From the IMG/VR virus record IMGVR_UViG_3300032093_000042, positions 1 to 64,000 of that record: a stretch of 64,000 bases of DNA; one strand, given 5' to 3'. A model generated the notes under the pieces. It was not told the DNA's origin, made no database searches, and saw nothing but the letters and a program-made list of their open reading frames with translations. Below, one piece after another: positions 8,665 through 26,537 of the stretch. Made by a program: the position numbers and the translations under genes. How positions within the stretch are numbered: the first letter of the stretch is position 1; each line of letters starts with the position of its first letter. The stretch is from a virus.

Positions 8665-8800
8665 AAACAAAGATAGACACGTAAGCAAAGCATTCGGATA
8701 ATGCGCCCTCCGGTTGGGAGACTGAGTTCAATTCTCAGATGCTTACAGGGAACATATCGCTATACTACAAAAGTAATGTGAGTGAAATCCTTAATTGTTT
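8665..8800 (+). ncRNA. Three-way-junction RNA motif, copy with embedded tRNA-like RNA
   Basis: Outer stem AAAC..AAG/CTT..TGTTT, then ATAGA (8673-8677), an arm, GAAC, a second arm, GTGAAATC (8782-8789). The first arm contains a tRNA-like RNA at 8681-8746: acceptor GTAAGCA/TGCTTAC, D arm GCA/TGC, T arm CTGAG-TTCAATT-CTCAG, and a poor anticodon arm whose loop would be CGGTTGG. Confidence 0.55.
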
Positions 8801-8829
8801 GATATTTTAAACTTTTTTTAACTTTTTTG

Positions 8830-8867
8830 TTGACTTTCCTGAATCTCTGGGGTATAGTATTTCCACG
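8830..8867 (+). promoter_or_regulatory. Leaderless-type promoter
   Basis: TTGACT 8830-8835, TATAGT 8853-8858, ATTTCCACG, ATG 8868. Confidence 0.85.
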
Positions 8868-9128
8868 ATGAATATCAAAGAATACTTGGATAAACTTGAA
8901 CAGACAAAGCAGAGTCTACTGTCTCTGAATCTACCGGACAATACTCCGATTGTCGATACCCCTGATATGGGTTGTTTGACTCCAATATCTAAAACATCTA
9001 TTAAGTTTGAAGTTAAAGATGTTTACAAATACAATTTGTGTTATTATCTTTATTCACACGTTTGTGATAAAGAACTGACTGAAAAACAAATGGTTGTGAT
9101 TTTGTCTGAACATTATACACGGAACTAA
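8868..9128 (+). CDS. Hypothetical protein, 86 aa
   Basis: Not recognised. N-terminal helix MNIKEYLDKLEQTKQSLLSL, a Pro/Asp-rich middle (DNTPIVDTPDMG), and a Tyr/Cys-rich strand (YKYNLCYYLYSHVCDKE). Its own leaderless promoter; a 118-nt gap without clear features follows. Confidence 0.65.
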   Translation: MNIKEYLDKLEQTKQSLLSLNLPDNTPIVDTPDMGCLTPISKTSIKFEVKDVYKYNLCYYLYSHVCDKELTEKQMVVILSEHYTRN

Positions 9129-9204
9129 AAAATATCTAAATAAAATAATATCGTAGAAATATAAAAACACTAATTATTTAGCGCTGAAAGCGTCTAAAAA
9201 GTGC

Positions 9205-9246
9205 TTGACTTTCTAAAATTTCCTGATATTTTATAAAAAATAAAAT
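9205..9246 (+). promoter_or_regulatory. Promoter with short leader
   Basis: TTGACT 9205-9210 and TATTTT around 9227-9232, followed by an A-rich leader (ataaaaaataaaat) to ATG 9247. Confidence 0.6.
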
Positions 9247-9384
9247 ATGAAAACTAAAATTAAGAACCGCAAAACTTGGGGCACTTTGAAGCCTATTACC
9301 AAACGTATTGAGTCTCTTAAGATTTACAAGCGCAGTAAGAATAAGTTTAATTATTCAAATTATAGCTGGGGAGATCTTAATTAA
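9247..9384 (+). CDS. Small basic protein, 45 aa
   Basis: A 45-codon frame behind a promoter and an A-rich leader. Very basic: MKTKIKNRKTWGTLKPITKR, then KIYKRSKNKFNY. Probably binds nucleic acid or ribosomes, but this rests on charge alone. Confidence 0.5.
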   Translation: MKTKIKNRKTWGTLKPITKRIESLKIYKRSKNKFNYSNYSWGDLN

Positions 9385-9402
9385 TTTAAAATAATAATAA
9401 AT

Positions 9403-9693
9403 ATGTCTGATATTGATCCTGAACTGCAAGCAGAACAAACTCAAGATGCTAAGTATCTACAAGAGCTTAATCACTATGTAAACACTCTTTCAGCTCCTTC
9501 AGCAGAATCCGTAGCGCTTTATAGATCAAAGCTTAGTATGCTTGAAGATATTCATAATGAAATTCGATCCAAGTATCCTGAATTTATGCCTGTATATGAT
9601 TGTTCAAAGGAAGCTGAACTAAATCAAGCATTGGGTAAATATCAAGAACATACTTATAGTCTCAGCAGCCGAGACATGAGTGCAGAAAAGTGA
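9403..9693 (+). CDS. Hypothetical acidic protein, 96 aa
   Basis: Not recognised. Predominantly helical and acidic, starting MSDIDPELQAEQTQDAKYL; the middle (YRSKLSMLEDIHNEIRSKYPEF) could form a coiled coil. Second gene of the unit that starts at 9247, with an A/T-only leader. Confidence 0.65.
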   Translation: MSDIDPELQAEQTQDAKYLQELNHYVNTLSAPSAESVALYRSKLSMLEDIHNEIRSKYPEFMPVYDCSKEAELNQALGKYQEHTYSLSSRDMSAEK

Positions 9694-9702
9694 AAAAACC
9701 CG

Positions 9703-9739
9703 TTGACTTTAGCCAGAAATCCTGTAGACTGTATTCCAC
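9703..9739 (+). promoter_or_regulatory. Leaderless-type promoter
   Basis: TTGACT 9703-9708, TAGACT 9725-9730, GTATTCCAC, ATG 9740. Confidence 0.8.
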
Positions 9740-10309
9740 ATGAAGAAACTCCAAAAAGAATTCACCGCTAACTATGATCGGGTTGGTATGAATCGTTTTG
9801 TTCAACTCCGCAAGGAAAATGGAGTTGCCATCTATGAACGATTCAACACTGATGATACCCATCGTACTTATGAGGTGTTCATTGTGAAGGTTGTACCCAA
9901 GGGTGCTCCTCTTCCTAATGGCAAGACTGTAGAGGAGTCGTATGAACAGTATCCGGGTGCCAATGCCTTTGGTAAGACTGCTTATGATTGTCGTTCACTG
10001 GCTCGGGCAGAGGAACGATTTGATCAGTTGGTACAGAAGGTCAAGGATAGTGCTGAAGCTAAGGAAGAGTCTATTAAAACTGGTAAGCGTAATCGTGGTA
10101 AGCGTGGTACTAATAAGATCAATGTTAGTGTACCTGAAAAGGATAGTAAGTTTACTATGAAAATGCTTATCACTTCTACTGGTCTAACTCAGCCTGTGTT
10201 GTTTAGTATTGTTAAGTCTTGGATGAATAGTGGTATTGTTAAGATCAATGGATACATTAAGTCCGAAGGTGGCCGAGGTCGTCCTAGTATTGAATATGTC
10301 GTGGTGTAA
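9740..10309 (+). CDS. Hypothetical protein with C-terminal winged-helix-like region, 189 aa
   Basis: The N-terminal half (YDRVGMNRFVQLRKENGVAIYE... EVFIVKVVPKGAPLPNGK) reads as a beta-rich domain with an FGKTAYDCRSLARAEERF segment. A basic linker (KTGKRNRGKRGTNK) then leads to a C-terminal region, FTMKMLITSTGLTQPVLFSIVKSWMNSG, followed by GYIKSEGGRGRPSIEYVV, that looks like a winged helix with its wing. The 115-aa product at 10484 has a related basic HTH-type layout, so both may be DNA-binding regulators. A strong terminator follows. Confidence 0.65.
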   Translation: MKKLQKEFTANYDRVGMNRFVQLRKENGVAIYERFNTDDTHRTYEVFIVKVVPKGAPLPNGKTVEESYEQYPGANAFGKTAYDCRSLARAEERFDQLVQKVKDSAEAKEESIKTGKRNRGKRGTNKINVSVPEKDSKFTMKMLITSTGLTQPVLFSIVKSWMNSGIVKINGYIKSEGGRGRPSIEYVVV

Positions 10310-10332
10310 GTAAACATACAAATAGTTACATT

Positions 10333-10369
10333 AACCAGTTAGTGGATAATACCGCTAACTGGTTTTTTT
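10333..10369 (+). terminator. Rho-independent terminator
   Basis: AACCAGTTAG (10333-10342) pairs with CTAACTGGTT (10355-10364), followed by TTTTT. Confidence 0.9.
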
Positions 10370-10446
10370 GAATATATTTTCAGATTACTTATAAAAATGC
10401 TTGCCAACCTTCCTCAAACCTATCTCGAAAAATTCGAAAAAACTGC

Positions 10447-10483
10447 TTGAATCTGCCCCAAACTCTGGTAAATTGATTTTGTC
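10447..10483 (+). promoter_or_regulatory. Leaderless-type promoter
   Basis: TTGAAT 10447-10452, TAAATT 10469-10474, GATTTTGTC, ATG 10484. Same geometry with a diverged tail. Confidence 0.7.
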
Positions 10484-10831
10484 ATGAACGACATCAATAC
10501 TAACTCTAACGTCACCGCCACCTCCACCAAGATCACCGCCAAGGTTGGTCGGCCTGCCATGTCGCTGAAGCTGATCCTCAACAAGACCTTCAGCCTCAAG
10601 GATCTGCAGGCTCTCAATCCCGATGTCAAGCCCGTCACCATTCGGGCCGCTGTTCTTCGGGGTCTCGAGAATGGCCGATTCACCAAGCTGAATCGTACTG
10701 TTCGATCGGGTCGCAAGGGCAAGCCCGCCTCGCTCTTCATCAATACCAAGGTCTACGAGGCTAACCTTCGTAACCTCGCCAAGTCCAAGGTTACTGTCAA
10801 TGTCGCTGAGACCGATGCTGTGACCGCCTAA
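10484..10831 (+). CDS. Basic HTH-like DNA-binding protein, 115 aa
   Basis: A Thr/Asn-rich start (MNDINTNSNVTATSTKITA) leads into KVGRPAMSLKLILNKTFSLKDLQALNPDVKPVTIRAAVLRGLEN, a helix-turn-helix-like stretch, then a basic wing RTVRSGRKGKPASLF. The resemblance to the C-terminus of the 189-aa neighbour supports a regulatory role. Highly GC-rich codon use compared with the late genes. Monocistronic, with its own promoter and terminator. Confidence 0.65.
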   Translation: MNDINTNSNVTATSTKITAKVGRPAMSLKLILNKTFSLKDLQALNPDVKPVTIRAAVLRGLENGRFTKLNRTVRSGRKGKPASLFINTKVYEANLRNLAKSKVTVNVAETDAVTA

Positions 10832-10850
10832 TAAACCAACCACAACTACA

Positions 10851-10890
10851 AACCCCGCTTGACTTTCAAATCAAGCGGGGTTATTCTTTT
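10851..10890 (+). terminator. Terminator whose stem carries the next promoter's -35
   Basis: AACCCCGCTTGA (10851-10862) pairs with TCAAGCGGGGTT (10871-10882), then ATTCTTTT. The TTGACT of the following promoter (10859-10864) lies in the left arm and loop. Confidence 0.8.
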
Positions 10891-10896
10891 ACCGTT
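10859..10896 (+). promoter_or_regulatory. Leaderless-type promoter overlapping a terminator
   Basis: TTGACT 10859-10864, a 17-nt spacer made of the terminator stem, TATTCT 10882-10887, TTTACCGTT, ATG 10897. Confidence 0.7.
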
Positions 10897-11283
10897 ATGA
10901 AGAAAAACATTATTCAAGTTCTCTACCTCGACGAAGCCGTTTACTCGTTCGTCGTCACCAATGACCTCTCTGTTGAAGATAATCTGGAACGTACATTCGC
11001 TGAATGGAACCATGGTAGTGGCATGGAGTGTGAAATGTTCATCAACTCCAAAAAGCGTTCTCTGAGCGTCAATGATATTGTGTGTGTCAACGGTACTTAT
11101 TATCAATGTAGGCCGTTTGGTTGGAAGAAGGTTACTGTTGAATATGTCAATGAATTAGAGAAGGAATTGTCACAACATCCTACCCGTCACGCCTATGGTA
11201 CATGGTATGCTTTGACAGAGATCATGTATGGCCGTCGTCACGATGACAACGAGGCTCTTCTGGAAGGAGTTGAGACCGTCTAA
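10897..11283 (+). CDS. Hypothetical protein, 128 aa
   Basis: Not recognised. Starts MKKNIIQVLYLDEAVYSFVV; the middle has a Cys pair (CEMFI, IVCVNGTYYQCRPFGW) and the C-terminus is His/acidic-rich (HPTRHAYGTW... RRHDDNEALLEG). Two subdomains are likely. Monocistronic between a terminator-embedded promoter and a terminator near 11329. Confidence 0.65.
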   Translation: MKKNIIQVLYLDEAVYSFVVTNDLSVEDNLERTFAEWNHGSGMECEMFINSKKRSLSVNDIVCVNGTYYQCRPFGWKKVTVEYVNELEKELSQHPTRHAYGTWYALTEIMYGRRHDDNEALLEGVETV

Positions 11284-11328
11284 AGGGCTGCCAGAACGCG
11301 CCAGAACCGCATATGGGCGCTTTTGATT

Positions 11329-11362
11329 GCAAGGGAGGGTCTGAACACCTTCCCTCTTTTTT
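11329..11362 (+). terminator. Rho-independent terminator
   Basis: AGGGAGGGT-CTGA-ACACCTTCCCT is an imperfect stem followed by eight T residues. Confidence 0.75.
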
Positions 11363-11385
11363 TTGCACTTACTGGCACTTTTTCG

Positions 11386-11413
11386 TTGACTTTCTGGTTC
11401 AGTCTGGTAAAGT
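11386..11413 (+). promoter_or_regulatory. Promoter of small RNA B
   Basis: TTGACT 11386-11391 and TAAAGT 11408-11413, then CTTTCCAG and the RNA homologous to 706-770. Confidence 0.65.
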
Positions 11414-11420
11414 CTTTCCA

Positions 11421-11483
11421 GATCGGCTGAACAAGCTAGGGTAGGGGACCAACTCCTACCTACGTTACGTTAACGATATCGGA
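11421..11483 (+). ncRNA. Candidate small structured RNA B
   Basis: GATCGGCTGAACAAGCT folds as GGCT/AGCT; then GGTAGG-loop-CCTACC with GGGGACCA near the loop; then CGTTACGTTAACG. Same order and conserved core as the minus-strand RNA at 706-770, with altered but still paired stems. Not coding. Confidence 0.5.
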
Positions 11484-11513
11484 AGAATATCGGAAGAAAG
11501 TTGCAGAAAATGC

Positions 11514-11551
11514 TTGAGGTTTCTGCTGGGTGGGTGTAATCTATTTCCACA
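11514..11551 (+). promoter_or_regulatory. Leaderless-type promoter
   Basis: TTGAGG 11514-11519, TAATCT 11537-11542, ATTTCCACA, ATG 11552. Confidence 0.8.
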
Positions 11552-11797
11552 ATGACACTTCAGCAATTTCAAGCCGCTTTCGCCATCGCCAAGGACTTTG
11601 ACCGTGACCTGTCCAAGGTGGACGACAGTATCCTCTACGGCTACGGTCTCAGCACCTTCAAGCCGGTACATACTACCCTTGAGGCGGTGGCGAAGACCAT
11701 CCGTTGGCAAGCCCTTATGATGAACGGCGAGTGGGATGCCGAAGCATTGAACGAGGTGGCCGAGGCTGGTCGCCGTAACTTTCTGGTGCTTGGTTGA
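11552..11797 (+). CDS. Hypothetical protein, 81 aa
   Basis: Not recognised. Helical, starting MTLQQFQAAFAIAKDFDRDL, with several Trp and Ala residues (KTIRWQALMMNGEWDAEALNE). GC-rich like its neighbours. Monocistronic behind its own promoter. Confidence 0.65.
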   Translation: MTLQQFQAAFAIAKDFDRDLSKVDDSILYGYGLSTFKPVHTTLEAVAKTIRWQALMMNGEWDAEALNEVAEAGRRNFLVLG

Positions 11798-11806
11798 AAA
11801 AAGCTG

Positions 11807-11845
11807 TTGACTTCTTCAAAGAAATCCTGTAGGATATTACCCACG
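11807..11845 (+). promoter_or_regulatory. Leaderless-type promoter
   Basis: TTGACT 11807-11812, TAGGAT 11830-11835, ATTACCCACG (10 nt), ATG 11846. Confidence 0.85.
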
Positions 11846-12034
11846 ATGAAAATTGAAAAGGAAACTATTCAACACTTTATGAAAGAGAACTATCCTAAAC
11901 ATTTTGCCAGTGGCAAGTGGGGATGTCAAAATATTGGATTTGCTCATGCTGAACATTTGGATTTGCCTGAACATGGATTTCAGGTAAGTGTGGGAGTTGC
12001 CAAAAAATATTGGGTGTGGTTGGATCACGATTGA
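11846..12034 (+). CDS. Hypothetical protein, 62 aa, paralogue of 3855-4046
   Basis: MKIEKETIQHFMKENYPKHF, then ASGKWGCQN, PEHGFQV and a WVWLDHD end: the same pattern as the 63-aa product at 3855. The start at 11846 is set by the promoter; an in-frame ATG at 11807 lies within the -35 region and is not credible. Function unknown. Confidence 0.7.
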   Translation: MKIEKETIQHFMKENYPKHFASGKWGCQNIGFAHAEHLDLPEHGFQVSVGVAKKYWVWLDHD

Positions 12035-12046
12035 TTGAAAAAGCTG

Positions 12047-12083
12047 TTGACTTTTTCTAAAAACCTGATAATCTATACCCACA
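12047..12083 (+). promoter_or_regulatory. Leaderless-type promoter
   Basis: TTGACT 12047-12052, TAATCT 12069-12074, ATACCCACA, ATG 12084. Confidence 0.85.
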
Positions 12084-12317
12084 ATGAAGATCACGATTGA
12101 GTTCGATCCCTTCGCCACCGCTGAGACCGCTTACGATTATTCCAACAGCAGCAAGACCTACACCATTCGGATGATGTTGAGCCAGGTCGCTGATCGTATC
12201 GACGATGCCATCTGGTGTAACCAAGCCAAGAGCACGTTGAATACCAAGCTGAAGGACCGTAATGGCAAGGTGATGGGGTCTGTGAAAATCCGGCTTGCTC
12301 CTGAAGAAAGGGCTTGA
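12084..12317 (+). CDS. Hypothetical protein, 77 aa
   Basis: Not recognised. Starts MKITIEFDPFATAETAYDY and ends in a basic region (DRNGKVMGSVKIRLAPEERA). Its TGA stop (12315-12317) is inside the next -35 hexamer TTGACC, so the two transcription units abut exactly. Confidence 0.65.
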   Translation: MKITIEFDPFATAETAYDYSNSSKTYTIRMMLSQVADRIDDAIWCNQAKSTLNTKLKDRNGKVMGSVKIRLAPEERA

Positions 12318-12350
12318 CCTTTTTCTAAAACCTGATAATCTATTTCCACA
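12314..12350 (+). promoter_or_regulatory. Leaderless-type promoter
   Basis: TTGACC 12314-12319 (contains the upstream TGA), TAATCT 12336-12341, ATTTCCACA, ATG 12351. Confidence 0.85.
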
Positions 12351-12605
12351 ATGAAATCCTACCTGACGATTGAACAAAATTCCCGCGGTGCTACCTACAG
12401 CAACTCCGACGATACCTGGACGGTCTACGAGCACTCTACCTATCCTCGCAGTTCGGTTCTCGCCGGTCAACAGAGGCGAGTGTGGGTGGAAATCTTCAAC
12501 AGCCTGGAGGAGGCTAAGGAAGCTTTCCCCGACGCTGAGGTGAGTGGGTGTACCTATCGGGAACCCTACTTGAACCACCTGCCTGACGACGGTGCCCTCT
12601 ACTAA
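12351..12605 (+). CDS. Hypothetical protein, 84 aa
   Basis: Not recognised. Begins MKSYLTIEQNSRGATY and contains many Ser/Thr/Tyr residues, then EIFNSLEEAKEAFPDAEVSG, a helix typical of small alpha/beta phage proteins. Monocistronic; a hairpin follows. Confidence 0.65.
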   Translation: MKSYLTIEQNSRGATYSNSDDTWTVYEHSTYPRSSVLAGQQRRVWVEIFNSLEEAKEAFPDAEVSGCTYREPYLNHLPDDGALY

Positions 12606-12614
12606 CCCGAAAAA

Positions 12615-12641
12615 AAGCTCCGAAAGGAGCTTGACCTTTTT
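12615..12641 (+). terminator. Possible terminator overlapping a promoter
   Basis: AAGCTCC-GAAA-GGAGCTT (12615-12632), then GACCTTTTT. The right arm ends in the -35 hexamer TTGACC of the next gene. Confidence 0.55.
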
Positions 12642-12667
12642 CTAAAACCTGATAATCTATTTACACA
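12631..12667 (+). promoter_or_regulatory. Leaderless-type promoter
   Basis: TTGACC 12631-12636, TAATCT 12653-12658, ATTTACACA, ATG 12668. Nearly identical to the promoter at 12314. Confidence 0.85.
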
Positions 12668-12865
12668 ATGAAGACCTACTTCGACGATAACTTCGGTACT
12701 TGGGACGGTATGGATGAGCCTGAGATGGTGGCCTTTTACCATCAGTGCCAACGGTCCAATGTGACCAAGGTTTGTAAGCGGTGTGAACGGACTGTTCGTA
12801 TTCAACCGCAGTATGCTATTTGTAATAGCTGTGCAGATGCAATTGAACGGGGAATGGATTACTAA
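12668..12865 (+). CDS. Zinc-ribbon-like protein, 65 aa
   Basis: An acidic N-terminus (MKTYFDDNFGTWDGMDEPEM) precedes VCKRCERTVRIQPQYAICNSC, two CxxC knuckles 14 residues apart that should bind one zinc. Such ribbons mediate nucleic-acid or polymerase contacts. First of four small genes (12668-13574) joined by AT-rich gaps without promoters. Confidence 0.65.
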   Translation: MKTYFDDNFGTWDGMDEPEMVAFYHQCQRSNVTKVCKRCERTVRIQPQYAICNSCADAIERGMDY

Positions 12866-12876
12866 ATAATAATAAT

Positions 12877-13071
12877 ATGAATAAAGAACTATTGCGTAAT
12901 TTTATCATCTCGGTGTTGAATGATGAGAATGGTATCAGCGGCGAATCATTCTCTATTCTCTACAAGATTGCCGAAAAGGACCAATCACTTCGTGACATTA
13001 TGTTGGCTACTGATGCTTGTGATGATCGGTTCTATCTAAAAGAAGAAGAGGATGACTATTACAACAAATAA
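12877..13071 (+). CDS. Hypothetical acidic protein, 64 aa
   Basis: Not recognised. MNKELLRNFIISVLNDENG and a very acidic C-terminus (KEEEDDYYNK). Helical. Leader taataataATG without Shine-Dalgarno; part of the unit begun at 12668. Confidence 0.6.
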   Translation: MNKELLRNFIISVLNDENGISGESFSILYKIAEKDQSLRDIMLATDACDDRFYLKEEEDDYYNK

Positions 13072-13075
13072 TAAT

Positions 13076-13360
13076 ATGACTCTTACTGAACGTTATAGTA
13101 ATGATACCATGGTTCGTAATTACATTCGTATTCATGATCCTGGTCATAGCTGGCTAGAAGTGCCTATCAAGGATGTTCGTGATATCGCCGGTGTTTGGGA
13201 TATTATTACAGATTATTCACCATTGAAGCGACATAAGTTCTATCTGGAAGAAGATTGTGATATGGGTACTTTCTATAACGCAATGATTCAAAAGGGGTAC
13301 ACTATCAATATCACCAATGTTCACGTCGATGACTTTGACGAATATCTACAAAATCAATAA
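13076..13360 (+). CDS. Hypothetical protein, 94 aa
   Basis: Not recognised. MTLTERYSNDTMVRNYIRIH, then KDVRDIAGVWDIITDYSPLKRH and an acidic end. The start at 13076 follows the previous stop by 4 nt; an in-frame ATG at 13052 would overlap that gene. Same operon as the neighbours. Confidence 0.65.
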   Translation: MTLTERYSNDTMVRNYIRIHDPGHSWLEVPIKDVRDIAGVWDIITDYSPLKRHKFYLEEDCDMGTFYNAMIQKGYTINITNVHVDDFDEYLQNQ

Positions 13361-13364
13361 TACA

Positions 13365-13574
13365 ATGAATACAATGGAACAATTCCAAGAAGATATCAGC
13401 ATGAAGTTCTTTGGCCGCAGTGTGTCACTCGCCAAAGCCGCTAACCAATGTGTGTGCTGTGGTAAAAATGCTACTGAGTTTCGTGATGAAATCAGTAAGC
13501 GTGAATATCGTATCAGCTCACTCTGTCAGCATTGCCAAGACGAGGTGTTCGCCCAACTTCCAGAGGAAGACTGA
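13365..13574 (+). CDS. Zinc-finger-like protein, 69 aa
   Basis: Contains CVCCGKNA (about residue 29) and CQHCQDE (about 54), a four-cysteine zinc knuckle related in style to the 65-aa product at 12668. A second ATG four codons in (MEQFQED) is an alternative start. Last gene of the unit. Confidence 0.65.
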   Translation: MNTMEQFQEDISMKFFGRSVSLAKAANQCVCCGKNATEFRDEISKREYRISSLCQHCQDEVFAQLPEED

Positions 13575-13593
13575 AAAAAGTTGCAGAAAAAGC

Positions 13594-13631
13594 TTGAGGT
13601 CTGCCGCTGGGTACTGTAGGATATTTCCACA
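13594..13631 (+). promoter_or_regulatory. Leaderless-type promoter
   Basis: TTGAGG 13594-13599, TAGGAT 13617-13622, ATTTCCACA, ATG 13632. Confidence 0.8.
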
Positions 13632-13778
13632 ATGAACGACATGATTGATACCTCCTGTGACCTCCGTGACCAGATCACCGTTGACTATCGTGAGACCTTC
13701 ACCCAAGACGATGCGGATTACGAACAACGTGCTCGTTGGGAAGAGTGCATGACGATGGAAGATATCTTTGAGGGCTAA
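13632..13778 (+). CDS. Hypothetical acidic protein, 48 aa
   Basis: A 48-codon frame directly behind a family promoter: MNDMIDTSCDLRDQITVDY, ending ECMTMEDIFEG. Acidic and helical; the size and charge would suit an inhibitor or mimic, but there is no direct evidence for that. Confidence 0.55.
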   Translation: MNDMIDTSCDLRDQITVDYRETFTQDDADYEQRARWEECMTMEDIFEG

Positions 13779-13820
13779 TACGTTCGGGGTAATACAATAA
13801 CAATAATAATCTACAACACT

Positions 13821-14339
13821 ATGGCTAACAAAATCAAGAAGAACGATACCGTCACCAATAACATTCAACTCGTCTACGGTATTGAGAAACTCACCGTTGT
13901 GCCTGCCAATACCGAACTCAAGGTCTGGAAAGTCAAACGTGATGGTACTCTCTATTGTAGTACCACTGATCGTAACATCTACTACGGCACTATCACTATC
14001 AAAGCTAACGATGTTACCAAGGTCAATAAACCTATGCCTACTGTCAATGTGGGTGATATCTATGTCTGTTCTTGGGGTTATGATCAGACTAACATTGACT
14101 ACTACAAGGTTGTCAACGTAAAGAATAAGACGGTCAACCTCGTTAGTATCGGTCAGACTCGTAACTACACTGGTCCTATGCAAGGTGAGTGTGTGCCTGA
14201 TCCTAGTGTCATGGGTAATAAAATCTACACCAAGCGCATGATTGACAATGGTAATGGTAGTGTTAGTTTCAAAATGACCAGTTACAGTTGGGCTTACAAG
14301 TGGAGTGGTAAATCCAACCACTTTACTGAGTGGGCTTAA
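13821..14339 (+). CDS. Hypothetical beta-rich protein, 172 aa
   Basis: Not recognised. Basic at the start (MANKIKKNDTVTN), then an almost entirely beta-strand sequence with repeated Val/Thr/Asn patterns (TIKANDVTKVNKPMPTVNVGDIYV... YKVVNVKNKTVNLVSIG). Contains SH3-like KNDTV/VGDIY openings. Preceded by a 42-nt A/T-rich leader. Terminator-like hairpins follow. Confidence 0.65.
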   Translation: MANKIKKNDTVTNNIQLVYGIEKLTVVPANTELKVWKVKRDGTLYCSTTDRNIYYGTITIKANDVTKVNKPMPTVNVGDIYVCSWGYDQTNIDYYKVVNVKNKTVNLVSIGQTRNYTGPMQGECVPDPSVMGNKIYTKRMIDNGNGSVSFKMTSYSWAYKWSGKSNHFTEWA

Positions 14340-14352
14340 GGGTAGGTGGGTA

Positions 14353-14376
14353 GGGGGCTATGTCACTTTAGCCCTA
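14353..14376 (+). terminator. Hairpin downstream of 13821-14339
   Basis: GGGCTA (14355-14360) pairs with TAGCCC (14369-14374), followed by TATTTAT. A weak terminator, probably working with the next one. Confidence 0.45.
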
Positions 14377-14390
14377 TTTATAAACATGAC

Positions 14391-14422
14391 GGGGTAGGGG
14401 GTATAGCTCCCTATCCCTTTTT
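14391..14422 (+). terminator. Rho-independent terminator
   Basis: GGGTAGGG..CCCTATCCC stem followed by TTTTTG. Marks the end of the early gene region. Confidence 0.7.
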
Positions 14423-14856: not shown

Positions 14857-14889
14857 CATTAGTGATATTTGATGATATATATTAGCAAC
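14853..14889 (+). promoter_or_regulatory. Promoter, leaderless geometry
   Basis: TTGACA 14853-14858, 17-nt spacer, TATATA at 14876, then ATG 14890. Confidence 0.6.
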
Positions 14890-14976: not shown

Positions 14977-15130
14977 TAATGATGTAATAGAAAACTTAGA
15001 AAACAATATCAACCATCACCGAAAAAGTGGTGGTTTTTTGTTTTTGGTGTTGACGTTCTTTGAAGTTGTGGTAAAGTTAGTAAACAGTGAACGACGAAAG
15101 TTGAACACGATGACAATTTAAAAAAAGTAG

Positions 15131-20455: not shown

Positions 20456-20458
20456 TTT

Positions 20459-21103
20459 ATGGAATTAATTATTGATAACGAAGAAAGTTTTATTACTGAT
20501 TTTTTTAAAAACGATTTGCATAATACGTTTAATTTTTTAGATATAGGTGCAAATGATGGTTTTAGTTTTTCAAACACATATAAATTATCAGCATTAGGTT
20601 GGTCAGGTGTATGTTTGGAACCTACACAAGAAGCTTTTTTGAAACTAAAAAGATTACATGGTGAAAATGGTAAAATCGAATGTATTAATGCTGGTGTATC
20701 CGATGTTACACAAGTTGTAACTTTTTATCAGTCACATGATTGGTATCAAACGAATGCTCCTGTTGGTATATTATCATCTATGGATCCAAATCATAAAAAA
20801 AATTTCATAGATATGAATTGGTCTGAAATAAAATGTATAGTTTACACATTTGAAGAATTGGAACGTCTTTATAATTTAGAAAACAAAAAATATGATTTTA
20901 TAAATATAGATGTTGAGGGTCACGATTTAATAGTATTAAAACAACTAAATAAAAAATTAAGATATTGTAGACTTATATGTATAGAAAAATCTTTAGACGA
21001 TCAACAAAATCAAAACATAATAAAAGAATTAAACACAAATAATTTTGAATTAATAGCAATGTCAGTTGATAATTTTATAGCGGTTAATAAAAAATTTTCT
21101 TGA
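20459..21103 (+). CDS. FkbM-family methyltransferase, 214 aa
   Basis: FLDIGANDGFSFSN (SAM-binding loop), CLEPT (strand 2 acid) and FINIDVEGHDLIVLKQL (signature). Closely follows the other FkbM gene but is not very similar to it, so the two probably act on different positions of the same substrate. The TGA stop (21101-21103) lies in the -35 hexamer of the next promoter. Confidence 0.8.
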   Translation: MELIIDNEESFITDFFKNDLHNTFNFLDIGANDGFSFSNTYKLSALGWSGVCLEPTQEAFLKLKRLHGENGKIECINAGVSDVTQVVTFYQSHDWYQTNAPVGILSSMDPNHKKNFIDMNWSEIKCIVYTFEELERLYNLENKKYDFINIDVEGHDLIVLKQLNKKLRYCRLICIEKSLDDQQNQNIIKELNTNNFELIAMSVDNFIAVNKKFS

Positions 21104-21138
21104 CTTACGTGGTTTTATAAAGTATACTGTATTACATC
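21100..21138 (+). promoter_or_regulatory. Leaderless-type promoter in the middle region
   Basis: TTGACT 21100-21105, 17-nt spacer, TATACT 21123-21128, GTATTACATC, ATG 21139. Same geometry as the early promoters. Confidence 0.75.
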
Positions 21139-21456
21139 ATGAATAATTTGACTAAAATTGACATGGCCAATTTGGTTGTGGACGAATCTAAAAAAACAGA
21201 AATAAGACACATATTGTGTGATAAATATGGTGCTAATGATGTACAATATCACGATTTGTCATATGGTATTTGTATAGATGTAGTTGGTACTGATAGTTTT
21301 AGATTTATTAAAAACGCAATAATTAAAACTCTGGGTGTACACGAAGATACGTTATCTGTATTGAGTGAAAACAAAAAAAGTTTAAAGGCATCTTACGTTT
21401 ATTTACCTGAAAAAGATAAAGTTTTAATTAAACGTCTTAAGAAATCAAAAATTTAA
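21139..21456 (+). CDS. Hypothetical protein, 105 aa
   Basis: Not recognised. An acidic/hydrophobic alpha-beta mix (MNNLTKIDMANLVVDESKKT... YGICIDVVGTDSFRFIKNAI), ending in a basic tail (KVLIKRLKKSKI). Single gene between its own promoter and two strong hairpins. Confidence 0.6.
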   Translation: MNNLTKIDMANLVVDESKKTEIRHILCDKYGANDVQYHDLSYGICIDVVGTDSFRFIKNAIIKTLGVHEDTLSVLSENKKSLKASYVYLPEKDKVLIKRLKKSKI

Positions 21457-21460
21457 ATTT

Positions 21461-21517
21461 TCTGAAATAATGAATTTTTATGATTATTTCGGATAACGTT
21501 AAGCTGTTCTTAACGTA
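21461..21517 (+). promoter_or_regulatory. Two hairpins upstream of the outer-membrane gene
   Basis: CTGAAATAAT/ATTATTTCGG and ACGTTAAG-CTGTT-CTTAACGT. Neither has a good U-run, so they could be a structured leader for 21553 or a processing/stability element rather than a terminator. Confidence 0.5.
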
Positions 21518-21552
21518 ACAAGTAAATAAATAAACAAAAAGGATAGTAAAAT

Positions 21553-22263
21553 ATGAAGAAAGTATTAGTATTATTGTCACTATTGACATCTCTAGCAGTA
21601 ATTGCTGGTGAAAACGCAAATATCTCGGTGGAAACTGGGTACAATAACCAATATACCGTAAATGGTGTTGCTCGGGCTGAAGACGCGGCATTTGTTAGTG
21701 TTGGTGCTGTAAAGAGTCTAAAATATGCGGATGTATATTTGGGTGGTACTCTTTTACCTACAGGAGATTCAGATCAGTCACATTGGACATTAGGTGTTGG
21801 TAAAGAAGTTGAAGTATGGAAAGATGTATTTTCGGCACGTGCTGATGCTACTGTTACTCGACACCAAGCTGGTGGGTTTGGCATTCCCAATAGTACTGAG
21901 TTTGGCGTAAAATTGGCTCTTCCAAACAAATTGATTACCCCATATGTGCGTGGTTCTTTTGATATTGATTTGGATCAAGAAGGTGTATTTGTGGGCGTTG
22001 AACGTGCACAAAAATTGCCACTTGGATTTGTAATTACGCCTGCTGTTGAATATGGTAGAGTATTTGGTACAACCAGTGATTATACAGCTGTAAATGCTAA
22101 AGCAACATTAAGTCGTCCGTTTGAATGTTCGTTTGGTGTAGTTACTCCGTTTGCTAGTGTAGGATGGTACGACAATAATTTTGATGTATCTAAATACAAT
22201 TGGGCTACTAGAGAGTTTAGTGGAGATTTAGTCTATACTGGTGGATTGAAATTCACCTTCTAA
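21553..22263 (+). CDS. Secreted outer-membrane beta-barrel protein, 236 aa
   Basis: A classic Sec signal peptide (MKKVLVLLSLLTSLAVIAGE, cleavage probably after ALA/IAG) is followed by alternating hydrophobic strands (FVSVGAVKSLKYADVYLGG, FGVKLALPNKLITPYVRGSF, ATLSRPFECSFGVVTPFASVGWY). The last residue is Phe in LKFTF, the BAM recognition pattern of outer-membrane proteins. About eight or more strands fit. One of the few genes here with a proper Shine-Dalgarno (aaggat) and its own terminator, i.e. a self-contained cargo gene. A role in receptor blocking or superinfection exclusion is inference. Confidence 0.75.
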   Translation: MKKVLVLLSLLTSLAVIAGENANISVETGYNNQYTVNGVARAEDAAFVSVGAVKSLKYADVYLGGTLLPTGDSDQSHWTLGVGKEVEVWKDVFSARADATVTRHQAGGFGIPNSTEFGVKLALPNKLITPYVRGSFDIDLDQEGVFVGVERAQKLPLGFVITPAVEYGRVFGTTSDYTAVNAKATLSRPFECSFGVVTPFASVGWYDNNFDVSKYNWATREFSGDLVYTGGLKFTF

Positions 22264-22288
22264 GTTAAAGTAAAACGTGTAATTAGAT

Positions 22289-22320
22289 AAACCCCCTCTC
22301 TTTAAGAGGGGGTTTATATT
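22289..22320 (+). terminator. Rho-independent terminator
   Basis: AAACCCCCTCT-CTTTA-AGAGGGGGTTT followed by ATATTTAT. Confidence 0.85.
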
Positions 22321-22346
22321 TATAAACGAAAGAAAGGTACATAATT

Positions 22347-23267
22347 ATGTCAACTACACTAGAAAGCTTACAGTTTGAATTAAATAGTTTAATTCAAAAA
22401 ATAATAGTTGAAGCTAAAAGAGAAGCGTCGTCAACTCAATTTTCAACTTCTGGAAATAGCGGAACTTCCAGTTTAACAAACGTACAACCCAATTTAATAT
22501 CAAAACCAGATTTAAAAGAACATATATCTTTATCATTGCAAATATTGTTGAAAGATAAAAAGGAAAAAAATATTGTTTCTGGGTTTACTATGAATCCGTT
22601 AAAATGGACACGAAACGTAAATTGTTGGGCTAGAAATCTGGATACAACTGGTATATCTATGGGAATATGGGGATTAGGTTGTGTCGGTGGCGGAACATTG
22701 ATTACTCGTAAACATGTTTTATTGGCAAATCATGTGCCGTATCCAACATTGCCATTTTTGATTTATTTTGTCGATAACAATAATAACACTTATGAATATA
22801 AAGTGATCAAAACAAAACGACTAGGTAATACTGATATATTGATTGGTGAATTAGATAGTGAAGTTCATAGTTCGTTAAAAGTATATAAAATATTGCCTTC
22901 AAATTATAAAACATATCTAACAAGCATGTTTCCTGTTTTTTATTCAGATCAAGAACGTAAATCTTTGATTGGGGAATTACAGACGGTTTATAATCAACTA
23001 GACGGCATTAATTTTTCAATGGGTAAACATTCAGATGACGTATTATCACAATATTTTGAAATGCTTGCCGTTGGAGATAGTGGCAATCCTATTTTTACAT
23101 TAGTAAATAACGAATTGGTATTAATAGGAGCTTGGTACAAAATCTGGACCAATAATACAGGTATGGGAACATTTTTACCTGCTCAAATTGCGGAGATAAA
23201 TAATATTACAAGAAATAGTGGATATGTTGTAAATGAGGTTGATTTAAGTGCATTTAAAAATTATTAA
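22347..23267 (+). CDS. Chymotrypsin-like serine protease, 306 aa
   Basis: PA-clan peptidase features in the correct order: GGGTLITRKHVLLANH (His of the triad, about residues 112-127), GNTDILIGELDS (Asp, about 165-176) and AVGDSGNPIF (the GDSGxP nucleophile Ser, about 247-256), followed by LVLIGAWYKIW as the C-terminal barrel. The N-terminal 90 residues are Ser/Gln-rich with no recognised domain and no clear signal peptide. Such enzymes are rare in phages, whose prohead proteases belong to other clans. Possible roles are cleavage of host or virion proteins. It has a Shine-Dalgarno (aaagaaagg). Confidence 0.75.
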   Translation: MSTTLESLQFELNSLIQKIIVEAKREASSTQFSTSGNSGTSSLTNVQPNLISKPDLKEHISLSLQILLKDKKEKNIVSGFTMNPLKWTRNVNCWARNLDTTGISMGIWGLGCVGGGTLITRKHVLLANHVPYPTLPFLIYFVDNNNNTYEYKVIKTKRLGNTDILIGELDSEVHSSLKVYKILPSNYKTYLTSMFPVFYSDQERKSLIGELQTVYNQLDGINFSMGKHSDDVLSQYFEMLAVGDSGNPIFTLVNNELVLIGAWYKIWTNNTGMGTFLPAQIAEINNITRNSGYVVNEVDLSAFKNY

Positions 23268-23313
23268 AATTTTTGTTGCTTTCTAAATTTACATACTATA
23301 TATTAGTAACAAT

Positions 23314-23367
23314 ATGATTTCACTATCACAACCTAGTCAAGCCAGTCAACTTCCATTGGGAAGTTGA
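23314..23367 (+). CDS. Possible 17-aa leader peptide
   Basis: MISLSQPSQASQLPLGS followed by TGA, ending within hairpin CAACTTCC-ATTG-GGAAGTTG. A terminator follows 28 nt later. This could be a leader peptide or simply a small RNA with two hairpins. Confidence 0.25.
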   Translation: MISLSQPSQASQLPLGS

Positions 23368-23394
23368 TGACGGAGTTGTTTGCTATAAAGATCC

Positions 23395-23429
23395 AACCCG
23401 TCACTCTATAAAAAGAATGACGGGTTTTT
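23395..23429 (+). terminator. Rho-independent terminator
   Basis: ACCCGTCA (23396-23403) pairs with TGACGGGT (23418-23425), then TTTT. Confidence 0.85.
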
Positions 23430-23440
23430 GATTTTTGTGG

Positions 23441-23469
23441 TTGACGGATTGAGAATGTGTGGTATATTT
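23441..23469 (+). promoter_or_regulatory. Promoter of tRNA array 2
   Basis: TTGACG at 23441 and TATATT 16 nt further; the conserved leader RNA follows. Confidence 0.7.
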
Positions 23470-23606
23470 GAAATATAACGAACGGGGTTGAAACTCTATC
23501 TGATGTCCCCAACGAAAGTTAAAACATTTGATCGGTCACTGGGTGTTATCCTCGTAGAGAACCCAACTGGCGATAATTGGAATAAAAGTAATAACGATTT
23601 TTAAAT
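23470..23606 (+). ncRNA. Conserved leader RNA of tRNA array 2
   Basis: GGGG/CCCC closing TTGAAACTCTATCTG, hairpin AAC-GAAA-GTT, then TGGGT/ACCCA closing GTTATCCTCGTAGAGA and GGCGAT. Counterpart of 15131-15335. Confidence 0.5.
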
Positions 23607-23683
23607 GGGTGGTTAGCTCAGTCTGATAGAGCATTTGCTTTACACGCAAAACGTCACAGGTTTGAATCCTGTACCACCTACCA
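23607..23683 (+). tRNA. tRNA-Val(TAC)
   Basis: Acceptor GGGTGGT/ACCACCT, anticodon arm TTTGC-TTTACAC-GCAAA, T arm ACAGG-TTTGAAT-CCTGT, encoded CCA. Confidence 0.9.
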
Positions 23684-23690
23684 TTTTAAT

Positions 23691-23775
23691 CGGAGTGTAG
23701 TCCGTAAATAGGAGCGGGCCAGTTTTGGGAACTGGATCGAAAGACCTGTAGGTGCAAGTCCTATCACTCCGACCA
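23691..23775 (+). tRNA. tRNA-Pro(TGG)
   Basis: Acceptor CGGAGTG/CACTCCG, anticodon arm CCAGT-TTTGGGA-ACTGG, T arm GTAGG-TGCAAGT-CCTAT, encoded CCA; the variable region is somewhat long. Confidence 0.85.
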
Positions 23776-23782
23776 TTTTAAC

Positions 23783-23860
23783 GGCTATGTAGACCAACTG
23801 GAAGGAGTCGTCTGTCTTAGAAACAGAATAGTGTAGGTTCGAATCCTATCATAGCTACCA
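23783..23860 (+). tRNA. tRNA-Leu(TAG) with short variable loop
   Basis: Acceptor GGCTATG/CATAGCT, anticodon arm TCTGT-CTTAGAA-ACAGA, T arm GTAGG-TTCGAAT-CCTAT, encoded CCA. Bacterial Leu tRNAs are class II; this one has only about five variable-loop bases. Confidence 0.75.
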
Positions 23861-23868
23861 ATTTATAT

Positions 23869-23946
23869 GGGCTGGCATGTTCTAAGGCTAAGCGAGACTG
23901 ATTTGCAATCAATCTGATGTGAGTTCGATTCTCACCTGGTCCACCA
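23869..23946 (+). tRNA. tRNA-Cys(GCA), copy 2
   Basis: Acceptor GGGCTGG/CTGGTCC with wobble pairs, loop TTTGCAA, T arm GTGAG-TTCGATT-CTCAC, encoded CCA. Class I, unlike the copy at 19062. Confidence 0.8.
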
Positions 23947-23954
23947 ATTTATAT

Positions 23955-24038
23955 GGAAGTAGTCCGGTAGGTCGAGGAAACTGTCTTGAAAACAGCTGGG
24001 GCCATAAACCCTCACAGGTTCGATTCCTGTTGCTTCCG
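23955..24038 (+). tRNA. tRNA-Ser(TGA), followed by a ribozyme
   Basis: Class II: acceptor GGAAGTA/TGCTTCC, loop CTTGAAA, variable arm GGG..CCC, T arm ACAGG-TTCGATT-CCTGT. CCA is not encoded: after discriminator G comes C and then the HDV-like ribozyme starts. Confidence 0.85.
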
Positions 24039-24114
24039 CGCTATGAGAAATTAGATTACCTGTCCGTGGTTCATAGTACACATCAAATTAATTGATGACT
24101 GAACATCTAATAAT
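24035..24114 (+). repeat. 80-bp direct repeat, copy 1
   Basis: Identical to 24241-24320; contains the last tRNA-Ser bases and the whole HDV-like ribozyme. Confidence 0.9.
24040..24111 (+). ncRNA. HDV-like self-cleaving ribozyme, copy 1
   Basis: Topology P1 GCTATGA/TCATAGT (G-U at the cleavage end), P2 ATTAGAT/ATCTAAT, P3 ACC/GGT with loop TGTCCGT, P4 ATCAA/TTGAT, and J4/2 with C-T-G-A (24099-24102) carrying the expected catalytic C followed by N-R-A. The nested double-pseudoknot order is exactly that of hepatitis-delta-type ribozymes. Cleavage is predicted before G24040, releasing the tRNA-Ser 3' end. Confidence 0.75.
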
Positions 24115-24154
24115 ATCGTCTCTTGAAGAAATCGGAGTTTGTCAAAAGATTTAT

Positions 24155-24244
24155 GGAGGTGACGTAGATAGTTAGGTTTCTACAGCAGTTTGCTAAACTG
24201 CCGTGGTCTAAAAGCCACTGAGGGGGCAGCACCCTTCGCCTCCG
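24155..24244 (+). tRNA. tRNA-Ser(GCT), followed by a ribozyme
   Basis: Class II: acceptor GGAGGTG/CGCCTCC, anticodon arm GCAGT-TTGCTAA-ACTGC, variable arm GTGG/CCAC. CCA not encoded; discriminator G and C precede the second ribozyme. Confidence 0.85.
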
Positions 24245-24320
24245 CGCTATGAGAAATTAGATTACCTGTCCGTGGTTCATAGTACACATCAAATTAATTG
24301 ATGACTGAACATCTAATAAT
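24241..24320 (+). repeat. 80-bp direct repeat, copy 2
   Basis: Identical to 24035-24114, offset 206 bp. Confidence 0.9.
24246..24317 (+). ncRNA. HDV-like self-cleaving ribozyme, copy 2
   Basis: Sequence-identical to copy 1, placed at the same distance behind a different Ser tRNA. Cleavage predicted before G24246. Confidence 0.75.
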
Positions 24321-24368
24321 TTTGAATACATATTAAATTATACACATAATATTTCATATTTATAAAAT

Positions 24369-24896
24369 ATGTACGATAATATTTTTGAAGGAACGTTTAA
24401 TAAACATAAACAATTAATGTTAGAATCATTAAATGTTAATGATAATAATTGGGAAGATAAAGTTAACTGGGATGTCATTGCTAACGATGTAGATTTTAAT
24501 AAAACTAAGCCGTTAACATCATTTTTTGGAATAACAGAAACAGATTTAAATACAAAAAAAGATCCTAGAAAAGTTAGTAATTATATAAATCATATAACAG
24601 ATAGATTTGAAAGAGATTTTAATAACTTACCTTTAAAAATAAAACAAACAAGCAAAGAATATTACGGTTTATTTTTACAAGATCCTACACTAGGAAAATT
24701 AAGATTTCATAGTTTAGCTCCTGGCTTAAAAGGATATGTAGCGATTAATGCGGGTAATCACGACGGTAAAACATATAGAAGTGTAGGAAAAGTTATTCAA
24801 GATCGTAAAGATCCAAATATACAACATATCAAATGGTTTTTTATAGGCGGACATGCTCAATATGACGATTTGATCAGTAGACTTCGTAAAAAGTAA
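24369..24896 (+). CDS. Hypothetical protein, 175 aa
   Basis: Not recognised. Acidic and Asn-rich N-terminal half (NVNDNNWEDKVNWDVIANDVDF) and a mixed C-terminal half (LRFHSLAPGLKGYVAINAGNHDGKTYRSVGKVI). GNHD occurs, but without the other phosphoesterase motifs, so it is not called a phosphatase. TATTTATA ends 4 nt before the ATG. Sits between Ser and Gly tRNAs. Confidence 0.6.
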   Translation: MYDNIFEGTFNKHKQLMLESLNVNDNNWEDKVNWDVIANDVDFNKTKPLTSFFGITETDLNTKKDPRKVSNYINHITDRFERDFNNLPLKIKQTSKEYYGLFLQDPTLGKLRFHSLAPGLKGYVAINAGNHDGKTYRSVGKVIQDRKDPNIQHIKWFFIGGHAQYDDLISRLRKK

Positions 24897-24902
24897 TATA
24901 AC

Positions 24903-24976
24903 GCGGGTATGATGTAATGGTAGCCTGACGCACTTCCAATGCGTATGTGAGAATTCGATTTTCTCTACCCGCTCCA
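24903..24976 (+). tRNA. tRNA-Gly(TCC)
   Basis: Acceptor GCGGGTA/TACCCGC, anticodon arm ACGCA-CTTCCAA-TGCGT, T arm GAGAA-TTCGATT-TTCTC, encoded CCA. Seven nt after the stop of the preceding gene. Confidence 0.9.
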
Positions 24977-25038
24977 ATTTTTTAAATCAATTAAAATAAA
25001 ATTGAACTTTCATTTGATTCTTACATATTTATGTATGT

Positions 25039-25722
25039 ATGAATAAAAAACGATCAAGTATTATATGGAAAATATCAGATGCTGAATTTACTAAATTGGT
25101 AAAAAATAGCAGAACGATGTCTGAATTGTTGAGACACTTTGGTATGGAAAATAAAGGTGGTAATTATAAAACTTGTAAAAAAAGAATTTTAAAATTAAAT
25201 CTTGATACCAATCATTTTCTAAAAAGAATAGATTCAAGTAATTTTACTAGAAAAGTCACAAAAAATATATTACTGGAACGATTAACTATTAATTCAAATT
25301 GTAATAGATCAAATTTAAAAAAATGGTTGGTTGAACATGATATCATAAAATATGAGTGTTCTAATTGTAAAAATGATGGTAATTGGTGTAATAAAAAATT
25401 AACTCTACAACTAGAACATAAAAATGGAATATCTAATGATAATAGAATTGTAAATTTAACATTTTTATGTCCTAACTGTCATAGTCAAACTAACACATAT
25501 GCTGGAAGATCATTAAATAAACATAAAATTAGACCGTCGGATATTAATCCTAATTGGAGAAGTAATCCTAAATATAATATCAGAAAAGTAACTAGACCAA
25601 CAAAAGAAATATTAGAACAAGAAATAAAGAATAATACTATGGTCGATTTAGGAAAAAAATATAATGTATCTGATAATGCTGTAAGAAAATGGTGTAAGAG
25701 TTATGGTATCGATATAAGTTAA
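25039..25722 (+). CDS. HNH endonuclease with HTH ends, 227 aa
   Basis: Central HNH domain: YECSNCKNDGNW (zinc knuckle, about residues 110-121), LQLEHKNGISNDNRIVNL (catalytic H-N region, about 131-148) and FLCPNCHSQT (second CxxC plus His). The N-terminus (TMSELLRHFGMENKGGNY) and C-terminus (MVDLGKKYNVSDNAVRKWCKS) look like HTH DNA-recognition helices. This layout is that of free-standing homing endonucleases. Lies between Gly and Gln tRNAs. Confidence 0.85.
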   Translation: MNKKRSSIIWKISDAEFTKLVKNSRTMSELLRHFGMENKGGNYKTCKKRILKLNLDTNHFLKRIDSSNFTRKVTKNILLERLTINSNCNRSNLKKWLVEHDIIKYECSNCKNDGNWCNKKLTLQLEHKNGISNDNRIVNLTFLCPNCHSQTNTYAGRSLNKHKIRPSDINPNWRSNPKYNIRKVTRPTKEILEQEIKNNTMVDLGKKYNVSDNAVRKWCKSYGIDIS

Positions 25723-25729
25723 TTTTAAC

Positions 25730-25804
25730 GGGGGATTAGTATAATGGCTATTATGTCTCGCTTTGAACGAGAAGAAGTTGGTTCGACTCCAGCATCCCCT
25801 GCCA
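25730..25804 (+). tRNA. tRNA-Gln(TTG)
   Basis: Acceptor GGGGGAT/ATCCCCT, anticodon arm TCTCG-CTTTGAA-CGAGA, T loop TTCGACT, encoded CCA. Confidence 0.9.
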
Positions 25805-25811
25805 ATTTCAT

Positions 25812-25860
25812 CGGAATGTAATGTCAATAGTAGACGGCCTGGTTTGGAACTTGAATCAAA
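25812..25860 (+). pseudogene. 5' fragment of a tRNA-Pro(TGG)-like gene
   Basis: CGGAATGTAATGTCAATAG followed by GGCCTGG-TTTGGAA-CTTG parallels the 5' 50 nt of tRNA-Pro at 23691 (CGGAGTGTAGTCC.., loop TTTGGGA). No T arm or 3' acceptor follows; the HNH gene at 25898 begins instead. Confidence 0.55.
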
Positions 25861-25897
25861 AATAATCGTTTAGACTATACTAATACTATTTATTAGT

Positions 25898-26437
25898 ATG
25901 GATTATACAGACATCGTAAAACACTCAAAATCAAAAAGCGATTTTGCTAAAAATTTAGGATATAAATTTTATAACGGAAAAACAAGTGCGATTATAAATG
26001 GAATTGTTAAAGAACACAATCTTGATATATCACATTTTAAATCATCTGGTGGAGGTCATAACATAAAATATTCGTTTGTTGAGGAAAAATGCCCGTGTTG
26101 TAACAAAATGTTTACAACACAATCTGGGGGGAATAATAGAAAACAAACTTGTAGTCATGCTTGTTCTAATAAATTTTTTGCATCAAAAAGAGTAACAGAT
26201 GATAACATAAAACACTATACTACATTGTGTTTTAGACATCATAAAAAACAATGTATAATTTGTGGAGAACAAAATATAGTGGCTGTACATCATTTTGATG
26301 AGAACAGAAATAATAATGTTCCAGAAAATTTGATTCCAATGTGTCCGACACATCATCAATATTGGCACAGCAAATACAAACATTTAGTTTACGATAAAGT
26401 AGTAGAATACCGAAACACATTTTTAAAAAAGATTTGA
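25898..26437 (+). CDS. HNH endonuclease, 179 aa
   Basis: Two zinc-binding parts: CPCCNKMFTTQSGGNNRKQTC..C (about residues 64-88) and the HNH core CIICGEQNIVAVHHFDENRNNN..PENLIPMCPTHHQYWHS (about 123-165), with the catalytic HH and N in place. The N-terminal 50 residues (IVKHSKSKSDFAKNLGYKFYNGK) resemble an HTH recognition domain. Inserted where a tRNA-Pro has lost its 3' half, consistent with homing-endonuclease activity. Confidence 0.85.
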   Translation: MDYTDIVKHSKSKSDFAKNLGYKFYNGKTSAIINGIVKEHNLDISHFKSSGGGHNIKYSFVEEKCPCCNKMFTTQSGGNNRKQTCSHACSNKFFASKRVTDDNIKHYTTLCFRHHKKQCIICGEQNIVAVHHFDENRNNNVPENLIPMCPTHHQYWHSKYKHLVYDKVVEYRNTFLKKI

Positions 26438-26496
26438 CTATTTGTGTATAGAATTATAGCATGCTACCTATTAGCTGGTAGAGGAGACTGAAGTTG

Positions 26497-26537
26497 ACGA
26501 GATAGACATATGGAACAAAGTATAGTGAAATCCTCGT
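26497..26537 (+). ncRNA. Three-way-junction RNA motif, shortest copy
   Basis: ACGAG/CTCGT closing stem, ATAGA, CATATG, GAAC, AAAGTATA, GTGAAATC. Embedded in a larger structure with CTACC/GGTAG (26464-26481) and GACT/AGTC; promoter-like TTGACT at 26434. Confidence 0.6.

Follow-up and report, generated by a model that had tools for sequence, protein, structure and literature searches.

A compact RNA junction motif with a near-invariant core, dispersed among tRNA arrays, tRNA-like RNAs and GOLLD RNAs of uncultured phages

The locus and five copies of a shared RNA motif

The window, that is, the whole stretch of 64,000 nucleotides analysed here, comes from an uncultured virus and contains a tRNA array at 15338-19053 on the plus strand (ARAGORN, Rfam tRNA). 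Rfam detects tRNAs and one tmRNA in the window and nothing at the core of the motif described below; the tmRNA (27639-28021) has the tag AEDNVISYDFSYDDVAVAA. Several tRNA genes at 15420-16660 possess odd T-loops (AGCGTTA, AGCATTA, GGCAGCA, and TGAAAAT) and D-loops without GG, and some of them are missed by ARAGORN. At 839-12670, a promoter-like unit, TTGAC-N-GGTAATCTATTTCCACRATG, recurs at least 15 times in nearly identical form; the start codon comes about 10 nt downstream of its -10 box, which suggests an array of leaderless early genes. Two similar structured stretches at 7680-7815 and 8420-8548 (tgattgatattacctaactggaaaaggagc ... tatcaatcaaaacaattttt) are possibly another paired noncoding RNA. 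A near-identical repeat (cgctatgagaaattagattacctgtccgtgg...) is located at 24032-24131 and 24234-24320, about 200 bases apart, adjoining a tRNA-Ser and another tRNA-Ser-like RNA, and an HNH endonuclease gene (25808-26437) follows the apparent 5' part of a tRNA-Pro(TGG), the 3' part of which was not found.

An earlier note on this DNA described five copies of a common frame, at 8665-8800, 16230-16298, 17755-17882, 18453-18564, and 26497-26537, and all five are borne out. The core of each is G-AUAGA-[Y..P2..R]-GA-AC[P3]GU-GAAAUC-C, with G-ATAGA, GA, AC..GT, and GAAATC-C exact in every copy. The word GTGAAATCC occurs five times on the plus strand of the 104,908-base virus record and never on the other strand, and all five occurrences lie within the motif; the reversed control of this pattern has no match on either strand. 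The outer helix P1 was said to differ in each copy while still pairing, and indeed it does: ACTG/CAGT, TTTGAG/CTCAAA, TTGAAG/CTTCGA, and ACGAG/CTCGT in copies 2 to 5, respectively. The P1 of copy 1, not listed in the note, also pairs, most weakly of the five (AAG/CTT adjoining the core, followed by a bulged AAACA/TGTTT). The observation that P3 opens with AC and closes with GT is exact for all copies, and P2 spans the range originally claimed, from 6 nt in copy 5 to arms with tRNA-like folds in copies 1 and 4.

All copies are on the plus strand. Copy 1 consists of G 8672, ATAGA 8673-8677, P2 8678-8749, which encloses the tRNA-like fold, GA 8750-8751, P3 8752-8783, GAAATC 8784-8789, and P1' from C 8790; its assignment is based on the sequence, a constrained fold, and a score of 22.6 bits with a covariance model (R1, see below). 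The next three copies are within the tRNA array. For copy 2, P1 is 16230-16233/16295-16298, ATAGA 16234-16238, P2 16239-16279, GA 16280-16281, P3 16282-16288, and GAAATC 16289-16294 (33.4 bits with R1); its P2 pairing is kept in a diverged orthologue from another phage (L289). Copy 3, with relatives in L289 and L202, is formed by P1 17755-17760/17877-17882, ATAGA 17761-17765, P2 17766-17814, which holds a T-arm-like hairpin, GA 17815-17816, P3 17817-17870, consisting of two hairpins, and GAAATC 17871-17876 (28.7 bits). The elements of copy 4 are P1 18453-18458/18559-18564, ATAGA 18459-18463, P2 18464-18536, again enclosing a tRNA-like fold, GA 18537-18538, P3 18539-18552, and GAAATC 18553-18558, supported by 24.8 bits with filters off and by a constrained fold. 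The compact copy 5 comprises P1 26497-26501/26533-26537, ATAGA 26502-26506, P2 26507-26512, GA 26513-26514, P3 26515-26526, and GAAATC 26527-26532, and scores 48.9 bits with R1, in the training set of which it is included. Compact copies are 33-41 nt long, and because P2 in the smallest of them is a single C-G pair closing a loop of 3-4 nt, the third helix is optional in length.

Covariation of the helices and constancy of the core

P1 and P2 covary strongly, and shuffled, slid, scrambled, and order-permuted controls fail. In an alignment of 22 compact instances (A1), five P1 pairs show changes on both sides, and the covariation score is 0.539, whereas shuffling yields 0.137 and sliding the partners no more than 0.177; for alignment A4, the score is 0.381 against 0.117. 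Hits selected irrespective of P1 gave 63 distinct flanks; 59 of these form the second P1 pair, which adjoins the fixed G-C, and 51 form the third, both pairs occurring in all Watson-Crick types. Among 66 model-aligned matches (51 distinct), P2 has 32 C-G and 13 U-A pairs.

Across 40 distinct gap-free model-aligned rows, core changes are rare and all fall in the AUAGA strand, where replacement of the U with A or G is tolerated in some copies matched by R1. One set of related copies, which are weaker R1 matches, departs from the core elsewhere: AC begins with C in place of A, and G replaces an A in GAAAUC. This constancy should be viewed with the caveat that the pattern scans required an exact core; R1 does not, but it was trained on exact cores.

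Distribution in phages

The same core is present in dozens of other uncultured phage contigs. R1 was built almost entirely from other phages, with copy 5 included and copies 1-4 excluded; with filters on, it recovers copies 5, 2, 3, and 1, and with filters off, copies 5, 2, and 4 are strong matches, the E-values being rough. It matches 46 of the 47 phage records tried, which had been selected for carrying a hit, and finds no more than five copies in any one of them; one further contig stretch, L202, yields six matches, one of them a weak variant. All instances come from uncultured phages, and some tallies count related phages more than once. A phage contig of 264,912 bases (L128) encodes a bacterial class A RNase P RNA (3063-3440, 170 bits).

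Pattern scans of viral contigs gave mainly chance matches plus true relatives when the pattern was loose, the two being told apart by P1 pairing (the matches in L186, L197, and L167, within long ORFs, are probably due to chance), and many more instances with a tighter pattern. A strict compact pattern matched 39 stretches in the motif order, compared with only 3 in the P2-open order and 0 in the P3-open order when the three blocks were permuted. Two of these 3 adjoin tandem motif copies and one is without supporting helices; no permuted-order match that would represent a ribozyme-style circular permutation stands up. The retrieved loci contain 44 exact cores with five or more P1 pairs, compared with 0 reversed and 0 scrambled cores; most of these loci had been selected for holding the exact core.

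In 257 Gb of bacterial and archaeal contigs, the strict pattern produced five matches, a chance-level number, none of them convincing; L294, from a prokaryote contig, has four P1 pairs but overlaps long ORFs. Because the prokaryote-contig matches look like chance, the element is, within the sequences tested, a feature of viruses. No convincing copy was identified in phages T4, T5, G, RaK2, CcrColossus, PAU, KVP40, Atu_ph07, XacN1, PA5oct, CM1, Mel-JY01, and immuto, or in two huge phages, and a BLAST comparison of the motif loci with named phages returned nothing.

No Rfam 15 family scores above the gathering score, and none matches copy 5 up to an E-value of 10, in agreement with the original remark that no riboswitch or ribozyme class familiar to its author has such a core, although Rfam is limited to families already described; literature searches found no description of it either, subscription papers and preprints being outside their reach. 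The earlier note held that its case would fail if no further instances with compensatory pairing existed or if an Rfam family matched. Many such instances were found in other phages and no Rfam match was, so the interpretation of the motif as a possibly undescribed RNA stands.

Linkage to tRNAs, tRNA-like RNAs, and GOLLD RNA

In 56 of the 81 instances, the locus includes a tRNA; the closest one always shares the strand of the motif and, for 32 of them, lies within 100 nt. Beyond what the first description recognised, the motif is modular: besides lying between tRNAs, it is carried by tRNA-like RNAs and is positioned at the GOLLD 3' end.

At 26435-26561 (plus strand) is a tRNA-like RNA, non-decoding and delineated with a 12-member alignment (A3), that has copy 5 at the tip of its T-arm. 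The acceptor TGACTAT (26435-26441) pairs with GTAGTCA (26551-26557), which is followed by T and then CCA (26559-26561). Together with its relatives, this RNA forms class A, in which a 7-bp acceptor ending in T-CCA is combined with D-like and anticodon-like arms, the latter with a variable loop; the T-arm is lengthened by GAA/TTC and bears the motif at its tip. RNAalifold recovers the class A cloverleaf from A3 unprompted, with both-side changes in 9 pairs and pairing in 98% of the cells. Among the features of decoding tRNAs, the 7-bp acceptor with CCA is met by copy 5 and class A, and the 7-nt anticodon loop with a stable anticodon is not: the class A loops vary in both length and sequence, and most other acceptor-enclosed members have loops that by eye are 5-6 nt long (L193 can also be drawn with a 7-nt loop). 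The copy 5 RNA is not called as a tRNA by ARAGORN and has no Rfam match up to an E-value of 10.

A perfect 7-bp acceptor with N-CCA surrounds 18 of the 68 distinct instances, compared with a mean of 1.7 and a maximum of 6 when downstream flanks were swapped between instances; the 18 cases are not independent, because about half are class A relatives. The motif is at the tip of the T-arm in class A, L035, L216, and L304, and, by eye, in the D-arm in L193 and L226, and in copies 1 and 4, L306, and L280, P2 encloses the tRNA-like RNA. The P2 arm of L280 (855-957, minus strand) runs in the order T-arm, acceptor, D-arm, like a circularly permuted tRNA; this order was found in this one copy and is not a general design.

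In 5 of the 10 GOLLD-bearing phages, the motif follows GOLLD RNA (RF02032) on its 3' side; it does not itself match RF02032, and matches to the 416-position GOLLD model end 7-18 nt before it. Of the other five GOLLDs, two, when read at their 3' ends, proved to be without the motif, and in three, motif copies are located elsewhere. GOLLD was not detected in 30 of 40 motif-bearing records and is absent from the record of the window. In yet another setting (L175), the motif lies between an ORF and a terminator-like hairpin, directly before the hairpin.

Among 35 motif-bearing records, which may be incomplete, Ro/TROVE is encoded in 1, RtcB in 4, and a T4 Rnl1-like ligase in 6; hosts were outside the Ro/TROVE test. 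Thus, none of the three is a general phage-encoded partner, which leaves a host factor or no partner at all. One 174,395-base phage (G049, the record of L298) encodes both a Ro/TROVE protein and RtcB.

Possible functions of the motif

We propose, with a probability of roughly 0.45, that the motif is a phage-specific docking or decoy module: stable scaffold RNAs would present it, and a conserved host factor or RNA would recognise it. The near-invariant internal loop or three-way junction, made up of AUAGA, GA, and GAAAUC plus the fixed G-C, A-U, and C-G closing pairs, would adopt a single fixed shape atop the variable helix P1. Non-decoding CCA-ended tRNA-like RNAs, tRNA-containing arms, and the GOLLD 3' tail would provide the scaffolds, and several RNAs of one phage might all present the same surface to a host-conserved factor, probably a host protein or RNP. 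We infer a recognition tag because one shared fold on unrelated scaffolds is what such a tag would look like. Transcription and independent folding are likewise inferred, in the absence of transcription data, as is partner recognition, rather than catalysis, as the purpose of the motif. Against the docking or decoy role, no partner has been identified, and near-invariant unpaired residues suit a catalytic core equally.

These residues, together with a 3' half that resembles that of the hammerhead, keep open the possibility, which we consider unlikely, of a new small self-cleaving ribozyme that cuts, for example, at GAAAUC/C and processes tRNA-like RNAs, GOLLD 3' ends, or tRNA spacers. The small size, variable stems and loops, scattered contexts, and several copies per genome would all be compatible with such activity, and it is no more probable that we are dealing with a phage-restricted new class of catalytic RNA, unlike described ribozymes, that is built into tRNA-like RNAs and GOLLD transcripts. 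However, circular permutation is unsupported, cleavage within closed T-arms or D-arms would nick the scaffold, and neither the hammerhead C3, U4, and stem III nor a match to any Rfam ribozyme was found. Docking or decoy is a better fit than cutting, given that the motif is placed in closed arms, that a phage holds several copies, and that circularly permuted forms are lacking.

It is slightly more doubtful still that the motif is a stability cap, that is, a rigid junction that blocks exonucleases or replaces the tRNA elbow and so preserves stable phage RNAs. The locations 3' of GOLLD, on tRNA-like RNAs, and before the terminator-like hairpin of L175 fit this possibility, but internal T-arm and D-arm sites with a closed P1 need no 3' block, half of the GOLLDs in motif phages lack the motif, and a simple stable hairpin could do without so conserved a core. 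Less plausible again is that function resides in the tRNA-like RNAs, as decoys for tRNA-acting host or defence enzymes, with the junction merely building the T-arm or D-arm. The covarying class A cloverleaf with CCA, the acceptor-enclosed instances, and the T5 precedent of tRNA-like stable RNAs of unknown function speak for this, but about three quarters of the instances, including those behind GOLLD, have no acceptor, and the core is unchanged there. A selfish or mobile RNA or DNA insert spreading via tRNA arrays seems the least likely reading: several copies per genome at different loci and nearby HNH genes are suggestive, but the window copies share only the core and differ in all helices, which points to selection on structure rather than recent copying.

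Whether docking or decoy module or not, a core that dozens of unrelated uncultured phages have in common, and that the tested bacteria and Rfam lack, implies strong selection for a shared use. The motif ties together phage tRNA arrays, non-decoding tRNA-like RNAs, and GOLLD cages, all of them little understood, and its compact copies are short enough for direct tests of cleavage, structure, and binding partners.

Comparison with known RNAs

The 3' half of the motif, GA-[R..Y]-GAAA-UC, resembles the hammerhead core from G8 to H17: in both, GA precedes and GAAA follows a helix closed by a purine-pyrimidine pair, and UC then precedes the outer helix. The hammerhead, however, has a CUGAN strand where the motif has AUAGA-[P2], with P2 inserted. 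Its CUGANGA strand (C3, U4, G5, A6) is not matched by AUAGA-[P2]-GA, in which the U is replaceable, and stem III, between A15.1 and U16.1, is missing, GAAAUC being contiguous in every copy; the Rfam hammerhead models do not match copy 5 up to an E-value of 10 or anything in 8300-28300. There is also a possible word match to helix 21 of E. coli 16S rRNA (GTGAAATCC..GGAAC), in an order different from that of the motif. Kink-turns and k-junctions share with the motif, as a resemblance of sequence only, tandem GA opposite GA beside a helix in a junction; the motif differs from the kink-turn in the extra unpaired A after the GA pair. Bacterial Y RNAs (YrlA, RF02553) are similar in being noncoding RNAs that mimic tRNA, and YrlA has only a weak, chance-level match in the window, over tRNA genes.

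GOLLD is, like the motif, found in phages near tRNA islands, a setting that GOLLD and ROOL cages share with the motif (PMC12286853), but the GOLLD model does not cover the motif, which is also present where no GOLLD was detected. The nearest precedent in setting is provided by the stable RNAs of T4 and T5, which do not contain the motif (R1 with filters off, best E-value 0.8): T4 rnaC and rnaD and T5 RNA1, RNA2, RNAI, RNAIII, and RNAIV are small RNAs of unknown function in tRNA clusters, and T5 RNA1 and RNA2 are annotated as tRNA-like.
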